DNA of 64,000 nt, taken from positions 620,001 through 684,000 of the forward strand of contig NZ_CP016776.1 of the NCBI RefSeq assembly GCF_002288185.1, read 5' to 3'. The translations under genes were made by a program, and so were the position numbers. The DNA comes from Candidatus Planktophila vernalis. GTDB lineage: Bacteria; Actinomycetota; Actinomycetes; Nanopelagicales; Nanopelagicaceae. Below, piece after piece: positions 6,826 to 50,054 of this stretch; position 1 is the first letter of the stretch, and each line of letters starts with the position of its first letter. The notes beneath the pieces are model-generated. The model saw only the letters and a list, made by a program, of their open reading frames with translations, made no database searches and was not told the DNA's origin.

Positions 6826-7864
6826 TAATCAAGAGCGTTTAGTGGGCTCAAACATCAAGGGAGAGGAGTCGGCGTTAGAACAAGCCCTTCGCCCCAAAAC
6901 ACTAAAAGATTTCATTGGGCAACACCGTGTGCGCGAGCAGATAGATGTTTTGTTAACTGCTGCGCGCCATCGAAACACGCCTGCAGATCACATCTTGCTT
7001 TCTGGGCCTCCGGGACTTGGGAAAACAACGTTGGCATTAATTCTGGCAAGTGAGATGCAAGCACCCATTCGCATAACTAGTGGTCCTGCAATTACACATG
7101 CCGGTGATTTAGCTGCAATTCTCTCTTCTTTAGTTGAAGGAGAGATTCTTTTCTTAGATGAAATTCACCGACTGCCACGACCTGCTGAAGAGCTTCTCTA
7201 TCTAGCGATGGAGGACTTTAGAGTCGATGTTGTAGTCGGCAAAGGTCCCGGGGCCACAGCTATTCCATTACAACTTCCACATTTCACGCTAGTAGGCGCA
7301 ACAACACGTGCTGGTCTATTGCCTGGTCCACTTCGTGATCGTTTCGGCTTCACCGCGCATTTAGATTTCTATGATGATAAAGAGTTAGCGCAAGTGATTT
7401 TAAGAAGTGCTGCATTGCTGGAGATAGATATTCATACCGATGCAATCACTGAAATCTCAGGCCGATCCCGCGGCACACCACGTATTGCCAATCGTTTGCT
7501 ACGTCGTGTTCGCGACTATGCCCAAGTTAAAGCCAGCCCTTCCATTTCATTAGCCGATGCAAAGGCTGCACTAGAGATGTATGAAGTAGATGAGATGGGC
7601 TTAGATCGACTCGATCGTGGGGTCTTGGTGGCATTGGTCGAGCGCTTTAATGGCGGGCCAGTGGGTCTATCAACCTTGGCTATTGCGGTGGGTGAAGAGA
7701 TAGAAACAGTTGAATCTGTTGCAGAGCCGTTCCTAGTTCGAAACGGCCTTATGGCCAGAACATCTAGGGGAAGAGTTGCAACAGCTGCTGGTTTTGCTCA
7801 TATAGGACGAACACCACCCGCTCAATTTGCCTCGCTTTTCGACACACCAGCACCTGACGCCTAG
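6818..7864 (+). CDS. ruvB: Holliday junction branch migration ATPase RuvB
   Basis: RuvB is the hexameric AAA+ motor that drives branch migration. It shows Walker [10 protein letters not shown], Walker B FLDEIH, sensor 1 GATTRAG, the arginine finger region LRDRFG and a C-terminal winged helix ending in [11 protein letters not shown] place the start at the GTG at 6818 (348 residues) because GGAAAG at 6805-6810 sits 7 bases before it and it overlaps the ruvA stop by 8 bases; an upstream GTG at 6803 would add five residues. The gene closes the ruvCAB operon. Confidence 0.96.
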
Positions 7865-7867
7865 ACT
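7862..7867 (+). promoter_or_regulatory. Candidate -10 element (TAGACT) for secDF
   Basis: TAGACT overlaps the ruvB stop codon and ends 8 bases before the secD ATG. A transcript from it would have at most a few leader bases. The hexamer is the same as those before def and the YczE-like gene. Confidence 0.45.
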
Positions 7868-7875
7868 CTGCACCT

Positions 7876-9387
7876 ATGTCTACAACTACTAAACCAGTAA
7901 AGACGACTGCCCGCCCAGCGCGTTCATTGGCAATCCTGGCCCTAGTGCTCATCGCACTTACCGGTCTTGTGTTTGTCCAAGGCGCTACGCAAGTACGTCT
8001 AGGTCTTGATCTTCGAGGTGGAACCTCTGTCACTCTTCAACCGCGTATTGCAGCGGGTGAAAGTGGAAAAGTTACGAATGAAGCAATCGACCAAGCAGTC
8101 TCCATCATCCGCCAACGCGTTAACTCACTCGGTGTTGCCGAGTCTGAAGTAGCTGCGCAAGGAAGTGGCACCAGTCGACAGATTGTTATCTCTGTTCCTG
8201 GAGATACTGGACGTCGCGTTGTTGAATTAGTTGGACAAACTGCAGAGCTGCGATTCCGTCAGGTATTGGCAACTGCAGGATCAACTGGTGCAGCAGATCC
8301 TGCTGCAACTCCAGCAACTGGTGTGAGCGAAGAGATTAATGCAAAGTTTGCAGCTCTCGATTGCACGAAGCCTGAAAATCTTCAAGGCTCCGGAGCCGAT
8401 GCAGAGGGTGACACCATCGTTGCCTGTGATCGCGCTGGCTTTACAAAATATATTTTGGCCCCAGCTGAAGTTCTAGGTCGTCAGATTTCAGAGGCTTCTG
8501 CAGGACTTGATGCTCAAAGCGGTAGTGCTTGGTATGTAAGCCTTACATTTAACGGAGAAGGCACAGCAGCATTTGGTGCAATCACTTCACGCGTTACTTC
8601 ATTAGCTGCGCCCCTTAACCAAGTAGCAATCGTGCTCGATGGTCTGGTTGTGTCTGCACCAAGAATTAATGAAGCGATTCCATCAGGTACTGCTCAAATT
8701 ACAGGCAGCTTTACACAGCTGGAAGCTCAAGATCTTGCCAACGTTCTTAAGTACGGTGCGCTACCTCTTGCTTTTGATCGTGGTGAAGTTCAGCAGGTTT
8801 CTCCGACTCTTGGTGCTGATCAGCTCAGCGCTGGTCTTCTTGCCGGAGGACTTGGTCTTGGACTTGTTCTTCTTTATTCACTTCTGTATTACCGAGGTCT
8901 TGGACTAGTAACTGTTGGCTCACTAGCAGTTGCAGCCTCTCTTGTTTATCTCATGTTCTTACTTCTTGGTGAGTGGATTGGATTCACGTTAACTCTGGCT
9001 GGTATCGCAGGTGCGATTGTGGCTATTGGTGTTACCGCTGACTCATTTATTATTTACTTCGAGCGTATTCGAGATGAAATTAGAGAAGGACGTTCACTTC
9101 GAACCGCTGTTGAGACCGGTTGGAGTAGAGCACGCCGAACAATTTTGGTAGCCGACTTTGTTTCAATTATCGCCGCTGTCTTACTGTATTTCTTTGCAGT
9201 AGGTGGTGTTCGAGGATTCGCATTTACTTTAGGTTTAACAACACTTGTTGACTTAATTGTCGTCTTTGTCTTCACAAAGCCAATGGTGACGATCCTTGCA
9301 AAGATGAATTTCTTTGCATCAGGTCATCCATTGTCCGGACTATCGGCCAAGAGCACTGGAACATTGCCAGTAGCAAAGGAGGCATAA
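7876..9387 (+). CDS. secD: Protein translocase subunit SecD
   Basis: SecD and SecF form the proton-driven accessory complex that helps release exported proteins from SecYEG. This 503-residue SecD has an N-terminal membrane helix (about residues 18-36), the conserved GLDLRGG just after it, a large extracytoplasmic domain and a C-terminal block of five predicted helices with GVTADSFIIYFERIRDE near the fourth. An Ala/Pro/Thr-rich loop near residues 135-150 looks like a lineage-specific insert. secF starts 3 bases after the stop. In many actinobacteria apt lies between secF and rel, but here apt is near 58.5 kb. Confidence 0.95.
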   Translation: MSTTTKPVKTTARPARSLAILALVLIALTGLVFVQGATQVRLGLDLRGGTSVTLQPRIAAGESGKVTNEAIDQAVSIIRQRVNSLGVAESEVAAQGSGTSRQIVISVPGDTGRRVVELVGQTAELRFRQVLATAGSTGAADPAATPATGVSEEINAKFAALDCTKPENLQGSGADAEGDTIVACDRAGFTKYILAPAEVLGRQISEASAGLDAQSGSAWYVSLTFNGEGTAAFGAITSRVTSLAAPLNQVAIVLDGLVVSAPRINEAIPSGTAQITGSFTQLEAQDLANVLKYGALPLAFDRGEVQQVSPTLGADQLSAGLLAGGLGLGLVLLYSLLYYRGLGLVTVGSLAVAASLVYLMFLLLGEWIGFTLTLAGIAGAIVAIGVTADSFIIYFERIRDEIREGRSLRTAVETGWSRARRTILVADFVSIIAAVLLYFFAVGGVRGFAFTLGLTTLVDLIVVFVFTKPMVTILAKMNFFASGHPLSGLSAKSTGTLPVAKEA

Positions 9388-44096: not shown

Positions 44097-45004
44097 TGCG
44101 TCTAGCGGTAGCCGCTACGCCCGAAGTTGCACTGCCAACTCTTCATTGGTTACAAACAAGCGAACACGATTTAGTAAGAGTCATTAGCCAACCTGATAAG
44201 CCCTCAGGACGTGGGCAGGAACTGCACGCTTCTTCAGTTAGTCAGTGGGCAATAGCCAAATCAATCGATTTGGTGAGACCAGCAAATATTGAAGAAATTG
44301 AATCAGCGATTGCCGATGTAGATTTGTTGATCACTATCGGTTACGGACGCATTCTGCCTTCTGCAACCATATCCATACCAAAGTTTGGTTGCATCAATCT
44401 ACATTTCTCACTTTTACCCAAGTATCGAGGAGCAGCACCAGTTCAAAGAGCTATTGAGGCTGGTGAAACACAAAGCGGAGTCACTGTATTTGCACTTGAT
44501 CCTGGAATGGACACCGGCCCTATCTACACGTCAATCACAACACCCATCGACCCCACAATGCGCAGCTTTGAATTGTTGGACAAGCTCTCACATGTTGGAG
44601 TTGATGCACTCAAACAAGCTTTGGTAGCAATTGAAAAAGGTACGAGACCTACTCCACAAACTGGATTGTCGAGCCTTGCTGCAAAAATATCTCGTAATGA
44701 AGCACAGTTAAACTGGAGTTCACCGGCGCATTCTTTAGTCAATAAAATTCGCGCTTTCTATCCGCAACCTCAAGCATGGACAGTGTTTCGTGGGCAGCCA
44801 CTCAAGATTTCTTCGGCAAGAGTTTCGAATGTAGTGCCAGATTTACAGCCAGGAGAGCTGCGAATTGTTGGGAGTGATTGTGTTATTGGAACTCTTGATA
44901 CAGCGATTGTTTTGGAGAGAGTAACTCCGGCAGGTAAGAAAGAGATGTCAGCGTTAGATTGGTCGCGCGGAGCTCGCTTTGAGGACGCAGAACGCTGTGG
45001 TTGA
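44096..45004 (+). CDS. fmt: Methionyl-tRNA formyltransferase
   Basis: Fmt formylates initiator Met-tRNA. The 302-residue protein has the formyl-THF-binding hydrolase fold with INLHFSLLPKYRGAAPVQRAI (catalytic asparagine/histidine region), GVTVFALDPGMDTGPI and a C-terminal OB domain from about residue 205. It pairs with def, its functional counterpart, by a TAATG overlap and overlaps rsmB downstream. Confidence 0.96.
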   Translation: MRLAVAATPEVALPTLHWLQTSEHDLVRVISQPDKPSGRGQELHASSVSQWAIAKSIDLVRPANIEEIESAIADVDLLITIGYGRILPSATISIPKFGCINLHFSLLPKYRGAAPVQRAIEAGETQSGVTVFALDPGMDTGPIYTSITTPIDPTMRSFELLDKLSHVGVDALKQALVAIEKGTRPTPQTGLSSLAAKISRNEAQLNWSSPAHSLVNKIRAFYPQPQAWTVFRGQPLKISSARVSNVVPDLQPGELRIVGSDCVIGTLDTAIVLERVTPAGKKEMSALDWSRGARFEDAERCG

Positions 45005-46346
45005 GGCTAGACGCAACACATTCAAGGCTCCTAAACCAGACGCAGTTCGTCTGTTGGCATTTGATCTCATCACCGAAGTTAATCGCAATGATGGTTACTC
45101 AAATCTCTTGCTTCCGGCAGCTCTTAACGCTTCATCATTGGAAGATCGAGATCGCAATCTAGTTACCGAACTTGTGTATGGAACATTGCGCATGCAGGGA
45201 AAGCATGACTGGATACTGGCCCAAATATCAGATCGACCTTGGATAGAAGTAGATCCAGGAATTGTGGATGTTGCACGCATGGGTGTTCATCAGATTCATG
45301 AGCTTCGTATTCCAGATCATGCTGCAGTTTCTGCAACAGTTGAAGTAGCACGTAAACGTCTGGGGGAGTCAAAAGCCAGTTTTGTCAATGCACTCCTTCG
45401 CTCAGTGACTCGCAAGAGCTATGAAGAATGGTTTGCACCTCTTGGACAGATTAATGACACAGTAGAACGATTATCAATCCAATACTCACATCCGCACTGG
45501 ATTATTTCTGCCTACTTTGATTTATTGAAGGATTGGCAAGCAGTTGAGGCAGAGCTTGCAACAAATAATGTCCCTGCACTTCCAACGTTAGTTTCCTGGC
45601 CTGGCTATTCGACTCAAGAAGAGTTAGTGGCACTTGGCGCAGAACCTACGTTTTACTCCCAGCTAGGCGCTCGACTTAAGGGTAATCCAGGAAATCTAGA
45701 TTTGATCAAGCATCGTTTGGCTGGTGTGCAGGATGAAGGTTCGCAATTAGTTGCCACTGTTTTTGCCGCGGCAGCAACTGGTAAGGCGTGGCTAGATCTG
45801 TGTGCTGGACCTGGAGGAAAAGCGGCACTTCTTTCAAGTATTGCTAAAGAGCGAGGAATCGATTTCACTGCAAATGAAGTTTCAGAGCCTCGTGCAGATC
45901 TTGTGAGGAAAGTCGTGCATGGAGCAACTGTTTGGTGTGGTGATGGCCGCGAGATCGCTACTCACGATCAGAGATTTGATGCGGTGATTATTGATGCTCC
46001 CTGCACGGGTTTGGGAGCCTTGCGCCGTCGCCCTGAAGTCAGATGGCGAAGAACTCTCAGTGATCTTCGTGAACTCACCTCGTTGCAGAGAGAACTGATA
46101 GATGCAGCGGTAGCTGTTTTAAATCCTGGGGCGATCTTGGGCTATGCAACATGTTCACCCCACTTGGCCGAAACAACGGTGCAGGTTTTAGACATTTTGA
46201 AGAAGCATCCAGAGTTAGAGCAGTTAGATATTGGTGAGTTTCTGCCGGCTAACTTGCAGGACGCCGTTCGTGGCAAATCAATGTCTCTCTGGACCCATAA
46301 ACACGGCACGGATGCGATGTTTCTGGCTTTGCTACGTAAGAAGTAG
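44997..46346 (+). CDS. rsmB: 16S rRNA (cytosine-967-C5)-methyltransferase RsmB
   Basis: RsmB methylates C967 of 16S rRNA. The 449-residue protein has an N-terminal NusB-like RNA-binding domain (about residues 15-150) and a C-terminal Rossmann methyltransferase with LDLCAGPGGKAALLSS (SAM binding), IIDAPCTGLGALRRRPEVRW with the PC motif, and YATCSPHLAET carrying the catalytic TC motif cysteine. I prefer the GTG at 44997, with GAGGA 11 bases upstream, to a TTG at 44979. It overlaps fmt by 8 bases. Confidence 0.93.
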   Translation: MVEARRNTFKAPKPDAVRLLAFDLITEVNRNDGYSNLLLPAALNASSLEDRDRNLVTELVYGTLRMQGKHDWILAQISDRPWIEVDPGIVDVARMGVHQIHELRIPDHAAVSATVEVARKRLGESKASFVNALLRSVTRKSYEEWFAPLGQINDTVERLSIQYSHPHWIISAYFDLLKDWQAVEAELATNNVPALPTLVSWPGYSTQEELVALGAEPTFYSQLGARLKGNPGNLDLIKHRLAGVQDEGSQLVATVFAAAATGKAWLDLCAGPGGKAALLSSIAKERGIDFTANEVSEPRADLVRKVVHGATVWCGDGREIATHDQRFDAVIIDAPCTGLGALRRRPEVRWRRTLSDLRELTSLQRELIDAAVAVLNPGAILGYATCSPHLAETTVQVLDILKKHPELEQLDIGEFLPANLQDAVRGKSMSLWTHKHGTDAMFLALLRKK

Positions 46347-46358
46347 CACCATGGCAGT

Positions 46359-46364
46359 TAGGCT
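46359..46364 (+). promoter_or_regulatory. Candidate -10 element (TAGGCT) for rpe copy 1, leaderless
   Basis: TAGGCT is followed by AGAGAT and the ATG at 46371. Only its last two bases (CT) belong to the duplicated unit, so the second rpe copy does not inherit this element; its upstream hexamer reads AGGTCT. Confidence 0.55.
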
Positions 46365-46370
46365 AGAGAT

Positions 46371-47036
46371 ATGACTCGTGAGATTCGGATTACGCCAAGC
46401 ATTCTCAACGCTGATTTTGATCACTTAGATCAAGAGATAGCAAAGATTGCAAGTGTCTCAGATCTTATACATCTAGATGTGATGGACAATATTTTCGTCC
46501 CAAACTTCACTTTTGATTTTGAAAACGCCAGCGAAATCATTAAGGGTTGTCCTATTGGGGTTGATGCCCATCTTATGGTTTCTAATGTTGATGAAATCGG
46601 CCCTCGTTATGCCGAAATTGGTTGCGCAAGTGTGACTATTCATGCTGAAGCCAGTGAGAATATTGCCAAGACTCTGCGTGCTATCCGAAGTCAAGGAGCT
46701 CGCTCTGGTTTGGCAATTAAGCCAAACACTTCGATAGATGAGTACGAACAATTCAGCGATCTAGTAGATATGTTTCTAATAATGACCGTCGAACCCGGTT
46801 TTGGCGGTCAGAAGTTTATGAGTCAGATGATGGAGAAAGTCCGAGCAGTTCGCCGAGTTATTGGTGATCGCCCTATATGGCTGCAAGTTGATGGTGGAAT
46901 ATCCCTTGAAACTATCGAAATTGCAGTCGAGGCTGGAGCTGACACCTTTGTCGCAGGAAGCGCGGTCTTTAACTCAGATGACCCAGCCAACATGGTTAAT
47001 GCCTTACGTTCACTTGCACAGAAGGCTAGTTCGTAA
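46371..47036 (+). CDS. rpe: Ribulose-phosphate 3-epimerase, copy 1
   Basis: Rpe interconverts ribulose 5-phosphate and xylulose 5-phosphate in the pentose phosphate pathway. The 221-residue (beta/alpha)8 barrel has PSILNADF, the metal-binding HLDVMDN and DAHLMV segments, [12 protein letters not shown] with the catalytic aspartate-region loop, and the phosphate-binding VDGGIS and GSAVF. This copy has the original upstream flank, with TAGGCT 6 bases before the ATG and rsmB just upstream. It is identical to the copy at 47675. Confidence 0.95.
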   Translation: MTREIRITPSILNADFDHLDQEIAKIASVSDLIHLDVMDNIFVPNFTFDFENASEIIKGCPIGVDAHLMVSNVDEIGPRYAEIGCASVTIHAEASENIAKTLRAIRSQGARSGLAIKPNTSIDEYEQFSDLVDMFLIMTVEPGFGGQKFMSQMMEKVRAVRRVIGDRPIWLQVDGGISLETIEIAVEAGADTFVAGSAVFNSDDPANMVNALRSLAQKASS

Positions 47037-47085
47037 GCGTTATTGGTGGGAGAAAAATTGGCAACGCTGGCACGAGGCCCTCTAG

Positions 47086-47091
47086 TAAACT
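47086..47091 (+). promoter_or_regulatory. Candidate -10 element (TAAACT) for hisE copy 1, leaderless
   Basis: TAAACT is followed by AAGGCC and the ATG at 47098. AAGG is too close to the ATG to be a ribosome-binding site. The element is repeated in the second copy. Confidence 0.5.
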
Positions 47092-47097
47092 AAGGCC

Positions 47098-47361
47098 ATG
47101 AAAACCTTTGAATCTTTATGGGCTGAGTTAAGTGAGAAAGCCCTCCAACGCCCTGGTGGTTCAGGAACTGTTGCAGCATTAGATGCTGGAGTTCACGCAA
47201 TCGGTAAGAAGATTTTGGAAGAAGCAGGGGAAGTGTGGTTGGCAGCTGAGCACGAGAGTGATGAAGCTTTAGCCGAAGAGATTAGTCAGCTGATTTATCA
47301 CGTGCAAACATTGATGTTAGCGCGCGGTCTGACTCTTGATGATGTCTATACCTACCTTTAA
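47098..47361 (+). CDS. hisE: Phosphoribosyl-ATP pyrophosphatase, copy 1
   Basis: HisE hydrolyses phosphoribosyl-ATP to phosphoribosyl-AMP, the second step of histidine synthesis. The 87-residue all-helical protein has [18 protein letters not shown], the metal-binding EExxE core of the MazG-like fold, and [17 protein letters not shown]. It is identical to the copy at 48402. In this copy the following hisG is broken. Confidence 0.94.
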
Positions 47362-47378
47362 GCGAATCGAGTTCACAC

Positions 47379-47678
47379 ATGTTGCGCATAGCCGTCCCAA
47401 ATAAAGGTTCACTAGCTGAAGAATCTATTGCGATTCTAAAAGAGGCTGGATATCGCCAGCGCACTGATAGTCGCGATTTAGTTCTTATTGATAACGACAA
47501 CAGCGTTGAGTTTTACTACCTTCGCCCCCGAGATATTGCAATCTACGTCGGCTCTGGAGAATTGGAAGCTGGCATCACTGGTCGTGATCTCTTGATTGAT
47601 TCAGCGGCAAGTGCCGAGGAACGTCTCTCGCTTAATTTCGGTGCATCGACATTTAGGTTCGCAGGTCTAGAGATATGA
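47379..47678 (+). pseudogene. hisG: hisG 5' fragment created by the tandem duplication
   Basis: The first 96 codons are identical to those of the intact hisG at 48683; then the sequence crosses the duplication junction and ends after three more codons (LEI and TGA). The truncated product would have most of the N-terminal part of domain I of ATP phosphoribosyltransferase but not the PRPP-binding region or the C-terminal regulatory domain, so it should be inactive. Its TGA overlaps the ATG of the second rpe copy (ATGA), which by chance recreates a coupled junction. Confidence 0.93.
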
Positions 47679-48340
47679 CTCGTGAGATTCGGATTACGCC
47701 AAGCATTCTCAACGCTGATTTTGATCACTTAGATCAAGAGATAGCAAAGATTGCAAGTGTCTCAGATCTTATACATCTAGATGTGATGGACAATATTTTC
47801 GTCCCAAACTTCACTTTTGATTTTGAAAACGCCAGCGAAATCATTAAGGGTTGTCCTATTGGGGTTGATGCCCATCTTATGGTTTCTAATGTTGATGAAA
47901 TCGGCCCTCGTTATGCCGAAATTGGTTGCGCAAGTGTGACTATTCATGCTGAAGCCAGTGAGAATATTGCCAAGACTCTGCGTGCTATCCGAAGTCAAGG
48001 AGCTCGCTCTGGTTTGGCAATTAAGCCAAACACTTCGATAGATGAGTACGAACAATTCAGCGATCTAGTAGATATGTTTCTAATAATGACCGTCGAACCC
48101 GGTTTTGGCGGTCAGAAGTTTATGAGTCAGATGATGGAGAAAGTCCGAGCAGTTCGCCGAGTTATTGGTGATCGCCCTATATGGCTGCAAGTTGATGGTG
48201 GAATATCCCTTGAAACTATCGAAATTGCAGTCGAGGCTGGAGCTGACACCTTTGTCGCAGGAAGCGCGGTCTTTAACTCAGATGACCCAGCCAACATGGT
48301 TAATGCCTTACGTTCACTTGCACAGAAGGCTAGTTCGTAA
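47675..48340 (+). CDS. rpe: Ribulose-phosphate 3-epimerase, copy 2
   Basis: This 221-residue protein is identical to the product at 46371 and has all catalytic motifs ([22 protein letters not shown]). The difference is upstream: the duplication junction replaces the TAGGCT hexamer with AGGTCT, so the candidate leaderless promoter is lost. Expression would depend on read-through from hisE/hisG fragment transcription, with the ATGA overlap offering translational coupling. Confidence 0.94.
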
Positions 48341-48389
48341 GCGTTATTGGTGGGAGAAAAATTGGCAACGCTGGCACGAGGCCCTCTAG

Positions 48390-48395
48390 TAAACT
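48390..48395 (+). promoter_or_regulatory. Candidate -10 element (TAAACT) for hisE copy 2, leaderless
   Basis: Exact repeat of the element at 47086-47091, 6 bases before the ATG at 48402. It would serve the intact hisE-hisG pair. Confidence 0.5.
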
Positions 48396-48401
48396 AAGGC
48401 C

Positions 48402-48665
48402 ATGAAAACCTTTGAATCTTTATGGGCTGAGTTAAGTGAGAAAGCCCTCCAACGCCCTGGTGGTTCAGGAACTGTTGCAGCATTAGATGCTGGAGTTCAC
48501 GCAATCGGTAAGAAGATTTTGGAAGAAGCAGGGGAAGTGTGGTTGGCAGCTGAGCACGAGAGTGATGAAGCTTTAGCCGAAGAGATTAGTCAGCTGATTT
48601 ATCACGTGCAAACATTGATGTTAGCGCGCGGTCTGACTCTTGATGATGTCTATACCTACCTTTAA
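48402..48665 (+). CDS. hisE: Phosphoribosyl-ATP pyrophosphatase, copy 2
   Basis: Identical to the 87-residue product at 47098, with the same MazG-like EExxE core. This copy is followed 17 bases later by the intact hisG, so it belongs to the functional hisE-hisG pair. The other histidine genes are not in the window. Confidence 0.94.
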
Positions 48666-48682
48666 GCGAATCGAGTTCACAC

Positions 48683-49528
48683 ATGTTGCGCATAGCCGTC
48701 CCAAATAAAGGTTCACTAGCTGAAGAATCTATTGCGATTCTAAAAGAGGCTGGATATCGCCAGCGCACTGATAGTCGCGATTTAGTTCTTATTGATAACG
48801 ACAACAGCGTTGAGTTTTACTACCTTCGCCCCCGAGATATTGCAATCTACGTCGGCTCTGGAGAATTGGAAGCTGGCATCACTGGTCGTGATCTCTTGAT
48901 TGATTCAGCGGCAAGTGCCGAGGAACGTCTCTCGCTTAATTTCGGTGCATCGACATTTAGGTTCGCAGGTCCAGCAGATCGCGAATGGAAGATTTCCGAT
49001 ATTGCAGGAAAACGCGTTGCAACTGCATATCCAGGTCTGGTCAATCACCACTTGGCCCAGTTGAACATCAAAGCAGATGTGGTGAGATTAGATGGTGCTG
49101 TTGAAAGCAGTGTTCGCTTAGGCGTTGCAGATTTGATCGCAGATGTTGTGAGCACCGGTAACACACTTCGTCAGGCGGGGTTAAAGATATTTGGTGATGC
49201 CATTCTTACGAGTGAGGCTGTTGTTATCTCCAGAAAAGATGCCGCAATCCCAGCAGAGTTAGAGATTTTGATTCGACGTCTGCAAGGTGTTGTCACTGCG
49301 CGGATGTATGTTCTTTTGGACTATGACATCCCAAAAACTTTAGTTGATAGAGCTTGCGCTATTACGCCTGGCCTAGAGTCACCAACCATTTCTCCACTGC
49401 AAAATGCTGATTGGGTCGCAGTGCGCGCCATGGTCAAGCGCAAGGAAACTAATGATGTTATGGATGAACTGTGGGCACTTGGTGCTCATGGAATCCTAGT
49501 TACTGACATCCACGCTTGTCGTCTATAG
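48683..49528 (+). CDS. hisG: ATP phosphoribosyltransferase, long form
   Basis: HisG condenses ATP and PRPP in the first step of histidine synthesis. The 281-residue protein is the long form with its own C-terminal regulatory domain (from about residue 205, [21 protein letters not shown]), so it does not need His[19 protein letters not shown] is the PRPP-binding motif. The N-terminal 96 residues are repeated in the fragment at 47379. The stop lies 4 bases from the stop of the convergent ACT-domain gene. Confidence 0.96.
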
Positions 49529-49532
49529 AAGC

Positions 49533-50054
49533 TTATTGAACAGTTATCTCTGCGCCATTACTAGATGCAATTGGGGAGAGAGATTGGTTGAGAGCCTCTT
49601 TCTTAGCCCCAGAGATTACAAACTCAATGGTTGTTACAGGATTTGAGGCCAGACGCGTAACACTTTCAATATTTGCACCGTTCTGATGAATCACCTCTGC
49701 AAGCTCTTCAATAGCCTTAGGAAGAAGCTTCACGGAGGAAAGTGAAATGCGCACAAGGTTTGTTTTGATATTCAACATTGATTTATCTGCGTAAGAGAAG
49801 AGAGAGGCTATGTCCACATCTAAACTCGCTGAGCAGGTTTCTAAATCAGCAGCTATTGCATCTTCATGTGCCGGATTAAGGGTGATCAATACTGTGAGGA
49901 TGAGTCGATCTTTGATAACCACTTGTTCGATATCCACAATTGTTATGGAAAAGGGTGAAAGTACCTCAAAGAGGGATGCGGTGATACCAGGCTTGTCTAC
50001 GCCACTAAGAAGGATGAGACCGGTGTATTGCTCTGCATCTGCGCTAGTACTCAT
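49533..50054 (-). CDS. Tandem ACT-domain protein resembling the N-terminal part of SerB
   Basis: The 173-residue protein has two ACT domains (about residues 10-80 and 92-172). They resemble the regulatory half of actinobacterial phosphoserine phosphatase SerB2, with GLILLSGVDKPGITASLFEVLS at the front. The protein ends at GAEITVQ, just where SerB2 proteins enter the HAD phosphatase domain; no DxDST motif exists, and hisG occupies the DNA beyond. The neighbouring ABC ATPase gene is also next to serB2 in mycobacteria, which supports a SerB origin. It cannot be a phosphatase; it may be a serine-sensing regulator or a remnant. TAATCT lies 10 bases before the ATG. Confidence 0.7.
   Translation of the reverse strand: MSTSADAEQYTGLILLSGVDKPGITASLFEVLSPFSITIVDIEQVVIKDRLILTVLITLNPAHEDAIAADLETCSASLDVDIASLFSYADKSMLNIKTNLVRISLSSVKLLPKAIEELAEVIHQNGANIESVTRLASNPVTTIEFVISGAKKEALNQSLSPIASSNGAEITVQ

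Follow-up and report, generated by a model that had tools for sequence, protein, structure and literature searches.

Does the exact tandem repeat between rsmB and hisG of Candidatus Planktophila vernalis come from a genuine duplication in the sequenced clone, or was it made on the way from DNA to assembly? The genome, reportedly described by Neuenschwander et al. in ISME J, is one contig of 1,364,004 bp. The window analysed here is a stretch of 64,000 nucleotides at genome positions 620001–684000, and window coordinates are used unless genome positions are indicated. Table 1 of PMC11283720 gives 1 364 004 bp as the reference size of GCF_002288185.1, the assembly of the Lake Zurich strain Ca. 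Planktophila vernalis MMS-IIA-15.

Structure and gene content of the repeat

The first copy of the unit (46363–47666, plus strand) is followed directly, head to tail, by the second (47667–48970, plus strand). When the copies were compared in the window, 0 of 1,304 positions were mismatched, intergenic bases and unit edges included. The maximal match at an offset of 1,304 is 1,305 bp long (46363–47667 versus 47667–48971), and one base, C, is common to both unit ends. A whole-genome search with the unit found two places (genome positions 666363–667666 and 667667–668970), both at 100% identity, and no third at the search threshold. The array is the sole exact direct repeat of at least 30 bp within the 64-kb window, and the sole one of at least 40 bp in the 488,000 bases examined (36% of 1,364,004). 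Chance is ruled out for an exact match of 1.3 kb.

The unit starts 8 bases 5′ of the rpe ATG, behind rsmB (44979–46346, plus strand; PF01189 and PF01029), which flanks the array on the left as a single copy. It contains these last 8 bp, rpe, hisE, and the first 96 codons of hisG. In copy 1, rpe (46371–47036, plus strand) encodes a ribulose-phosphate 3-epimerase of 221 aa (TIGR01163 at 228.5 bits with a cut-off of 212.6; PF00834), and hisE (47098–47361, plus strand) a phosphoribosyl-ATP diphosphatase of 87 aa (NF001610 at 149.5 bits with a cut-off of 104). In copy 2, the reading frames of rpe (47675–48340, plus strand) and hisE (48402–48665, plus strand) lie in the identical unit.

The two hisG frames differ. 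The broken hisG at the junction (47379–47678, plus strand) encodes 99 aa, of which 96 are HisG residues and 3 are read from the second unit before a TGA, and TIGR00070 matches it over positions 1–95 of 183. Copy 2, on the other hand, continues into an intact, two-domain hisG (48683–49528, plus strand), an ATP phosphoribosyltransferase of 281 aa with TIGR00070 and TIGR03455 over cut-off as well as PF01634 and PF08029. The event thus costs no gene, and the intact hisG at the far end still has its own upstream sequence, which lies in copy 2. The stop of the broken hisG overlaps the ATG of rpe copy 2 as ATGA. An AGG precedes this ATG by about 11 bases; in rpe copy 1 the distance is about 10 bases. 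Because the upstream AGG is kept and the start lies inside the stop of the fragment, rpe copy 2 is probably still translatable.

The initial annotation had described a 1,304-bp tandem copy without differences, intergenic bases included, whose ends have one base in common and which yields two full rpe and hisE genes and a broken hisG ahead of the intact one. The sequence comparison, gene calls and profiles agree with this description throughout. An Rfam scan of the 64-kb window returned a tRNA only. The junction creates a TCTAGA (XbaI) site at 47665–47670 that neither native breakpoint has, usable as a diagnostic for PCR products.

Comparison with relatives

The initial annotation had suggested a comparison with sister genomes. 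The closest relative found, L023, is single-copy. Its nucleotide identity to this genome is 91% over 8.3 kb leftward of and through copy 1 and 88% over the 4.4 kb that extend to the right from copy 2, and its stretch 6982–8281 aligns to both copies. Because this single stretch matches both, the outer flanks are ancestral and the inner junction alone is new.

A wider set of 102 loci was gathered, three of which belong to the genome under study and were excluded from the counts. Among the remaining 99 loci from other genomes, some of which are represented twice, none has a second hisE or hisG, and rsmB, rpe, hisE and hisG are all present in 82. The close loci found are all from freshwater acI actinobacteria or unlabelled actinobacterial bins. 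At the genome level, an rpe match is present in 124 of the 134 other genomes of the genus and absent from ten, and a second full-length rpe occurs in none of the 134. The novel junction was searched as a 25-mer (47658–47682, plus strand) allowing up to 2 mismatches, and only this genome among 135 of the genus has it. A search of viral contigs for the junction gave 0 matches, as expected for a chromosomal locus.

Short-read assemblies often collapse exact tandem repeats, so the absence among the 134 counts most where the genome is a single contig, as in 12 of the others. In all 12 the order rsmB-rpe-hisE-hisG occurs once, and the weight of these genomes as controls depends on their assembly method. 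On the sequences compared, the duplication is derived and so far private to this genome. Our literature search found no report of a tandem duplication in Nanopelagicales.

Some other features of the relatives were seen on the way. In several, rpe and hisE are separated by an additional gene that this genome and L023 lack; in L026 (6806–7719) it encodes a membrane protein that resembles PnuC by eye. In two genomes (G031 and G150) rpe was found only as two partial pieces. Those of G031, at L010 1501–2162, overlap and are read in different frames; they belong to a single rpe with a frameshift or a sequencing error, and L010 is the one locus among the 99 with two rpe hits. Four loci with an acI-like rsmB-rpe-hisE-hisG arrangement are titled Streptomyces griseus (L042), Bifidobacterium breve (L059 and L064) and Candidatus Fonsibacter lacus (L093), and these titles are probably wrong.

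Age of the event

Between one copy and L023, about 8.4% of positions differ (identity 0.916; about 110 of 1,304), while the copies do not differ from each other at all. By the rule of three, fewer than about 3 differences between the copies are expected. By this arithmetic, the event, if real, would have less than about 3% of the age of the L023 split, given equal rates and no gene conversion.

Gene conversion would allow the duplication to be old, with its copies held identical. Tandem copies can convert each other, and a recA gene is present in the genome. However, neither the sister species nor any other relative examined has the duplication, and the copies show 0 of 1,304 differences against 8.4% between one copy and the sister. 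The hisG fragment, the intergenic bases and the unit edges are identical too. We regard an old, converted duplication as having next to no chance of being correct.

Junction and possible mechanism

The one shared base is unremarkable, as 43% of random pairs have at least one in common. The 30-bp surrounds of the two breakpoints are alike to a degree equalled by 54% of 4,164 random pairs. The junction thus has little or no homology and is unexplained by flanking repeats, as in short-junction tandem duplications. A gapped likeness of the breakpoints had been seen by eye (AGG.CTAG.AGAT versus AGGTCCAGCAGAT), and was dropped with the same 54% of random pairs scoring as high. DNA hairpins were also considered; compared with shuffles, folding is worse at the left breakpoint and at the junction (z of 1.47 and 1.84) and slightly better at the right breakpoint (z of −1.02).

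The initial annotation had seen no mobile-element signature, and none emerged when six proteins encoded in or next to the array were scanned, as no mobile-element family matched. Within 100 bp of the borders, there is one 8-bp inverted pair at the left and none at the right. With this one inverted pair, one shared base and no mobile-element family in the six proteins, the borders show no sign of the transposase, IS ends or target-site duplication that a transposon or IS would leave. Nor did Ku-dependent end joining find support, as a search for the Ku gene (PF02735, E of 0.01 or better) gave 0 matches in the genome; as a control, the search matched 1 of 14 genomes, that of Bacillus subtilis. 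Because the breakpoints are random-like and neither a mobile-element family nor Ku was found, neither homologous recombination nor a transposon or Ku-dependent route is likely. The biological route that remains would be template switching or some other join with little homology.

By this route, an end near 48970, inside hisG, would have been joined shortly before rpe, near 46363. The join could have occurred during replication or break repair, essentially without homology, with only one base shared, and would have left head-to-tail copies. Its effect would be near neutral, as the intact hisG is kept and the broken one adds only a fragment of 99 residues. RecA recombination between the copies could remove the duplication again.

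The array resembles the short-junction tandem duplications of bacteria in its head-to-tail copies, its near-blunt junction, and the lack of long repeats or IS found at its ends. It also has complete internal genes and one truncated gene at the junction. Bacterial duplications as usually described span many kilobases, and the array unit is short by comparison. The array also differs in being known from an assembly alone and in its one-base homology. PMC5053440 states that duplication junctions tend to have more microhomology in bacteria than in eukaryotes, and by that measure one base is little.

Genuine duplication or assembly artefact

We lean towards a genuine short-junction tandem duplication that the sequenced clone acquired very recently, and give it slightly better than even chances. 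The near-blunt junction and exact identity are features of the assembled sequence; that the array exists in cells is what we infer. The other serious candidate is an artefact of assembly or amplification at a former contig end, which we consider a little short of an even bet. A recent event and an assembly error had both been named in the initial annotation. The two remain close, and these weights are judgements.

The behavior of assemblers favors the genuine duplication. Faced with an exact tandem repeat of 1.3 kb, de Bruijn assemblers of short reads are more prone to merge the copies than to create a second one. From a real junction, a contig with the unit at both of its ends would be expected, and without reads in support of the junction such ends do not arise. 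For a plain circle, the ends of a SPAdes contig should have about one k-mer in common rather than 1,304 bp, which counts against an artefact. No exact repeat of at least 40 bp was found in the 17–20 kb around the locus in the 12 other single-contig relatives, a test that left their own contig ends outside, and this also speaks against an artefact. Against a genuine event stand the one-base junction, which is low for bacteria, and the fact that the array is alone among such repeats in the 488 kb examined.

How the reads were obtained and handled bears on both sides. In related work of the group behind this strain's genome, reads of 2 x 250 bp from 550-bp libraries were used, according to PMC6794327. 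The unit (1,304 bp) exceeds such reads and libraries, so the array would be beyond the span of a single read if the same method was applied here, which counts against a genuine event. PMC6794327 also describes that the group mapped reads back for assembly errors in later genomes, and such mapping should reveal a junction without reads, contrary to an artefact. In favor of an artefact, it describes that contigs with overlapping ends were circularised in silico; closure of short-read assemblies through overlapping ends is described in PMC12381374 as well, and the group also extended ends by repeated read mapping.

An untrimmed overlap of contig ends would leave what is found here: perfectly identical copies with arbitrary breakpoints, in one instance, in a contig starting at dnaA. 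The contig starts just before dnaA (ORF 95–1492; dnaA, dnaN, recF, gyrB and gyrA were recognised by eye), so it was probably rotated and its original ends could be anywhere. Near-identical overlaps of contig ends are a known error in circular assemblies, but PMC4699355 describes them for long-read assemblies, from which this error is best known.

Arbitrary breakpoints and absence from all relatives also fit an artefact. Chimeras formed in multiple displacement amplification can join nearby sequences with little homology. The sole lead to amplified DNA for this strain is a citation in PMC12381374, where an amplification protocol is given 'as described previously' with reference 24, the acI strains paper.

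If the array is real, a gene duplication has been caught at its start in a type of genome known for DNA loss, and it offers a handle to measure rates of duplication and loss in such cells. If it is an artefact, a reference genome used to map lake metagenomes (PMC11283720) contains a 1,304-bp error, and metagenome reads within the unit map ambiguously. The general view is unchanged in either case.

Chromosomal position and gene dosage

A dif-like sequence occurs some 27 kb beyond the array and 12 kb beyond the window end, at genome position 696034. It has 5 mismatches of 28 to an actinobacterial dif, where 0.0003 such sites are expected in the 488 kb examined. Apart from exceptions at 330001, 1080001 and 1352005, GC skew in the sampled stretches is mostly positive up to this site and mostly negative beyond it. 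Because the dif-like site is close by and the skew changes sign there, the array lies near the replication terminus. The locus is near mid-chromosome in several other single-contig relatives.

The initial annotation had raised dosage selection. On this reading a genuine duplication would be kept, in the lake or in culture, since extra Rpe and/or HisE is useful. Both genes are complete in both copies, and with the AGG kept upstream of rpe copy 2 and its start overlapping the preceding stop, extra product would be possible. Yet no other genome of the genus has a second full-length rpe (0 of 134), with the reservation that short-read assemblies could hide exact duplicates. Moreover, the copies are undiverged, and promoter-like sites in 46000–49700 number 0 against 4.6 expected in shuffles. 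The suggestion thus found no comparative, regulatory or sequence evidence in its favor, and we hold selection for dosage to be very improbable. Equally small is the chance we give to its more specific form, in which a selected rpe-hisE duplication about 27 kb from the dif-like site, in a bacterium that is among the most streamlined of the free-living ones, marks adaptation to culture or a local demand for flux through the pentose-phosphate or histidine pathway. With borders that disregard gene function and a hisG broken by one of them, the duplication looks accidental.

A SerB remnant beside the array

To the right of the array, a SerB remnant with ACT domains only (49533–50054, minus strand) was recognised by domain profiles, ending 4 bases from the hisG stop. 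The corresponding gene of a relative (L025) continues into the phosphatase part. The serB model TIGR00338 scored over cut-off in 6 of the 7 relatives tested, close to the rsmB-hisG locus where comparable. It had no match over cut-off in this genome or in G096, which was taken as the genome of L023, judged by gene positions. When the phosphatase part of L025 was used as a query, one weak match was found in this genome (23% identity, E of 0.001). Judged by these profile and similarity searches, this species and its sister L023 retain only the ACT domains of SerB.

The dN/dS of the ACT remnant between this genome and L023 is 0.126, compared with 0.025–0.10 for four neighbouring genes. With this value, the remnant looks maintained under purifying selection. 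It may be a regulatory remnant, or the reduction of SerB may reflect serine auxotrophy.
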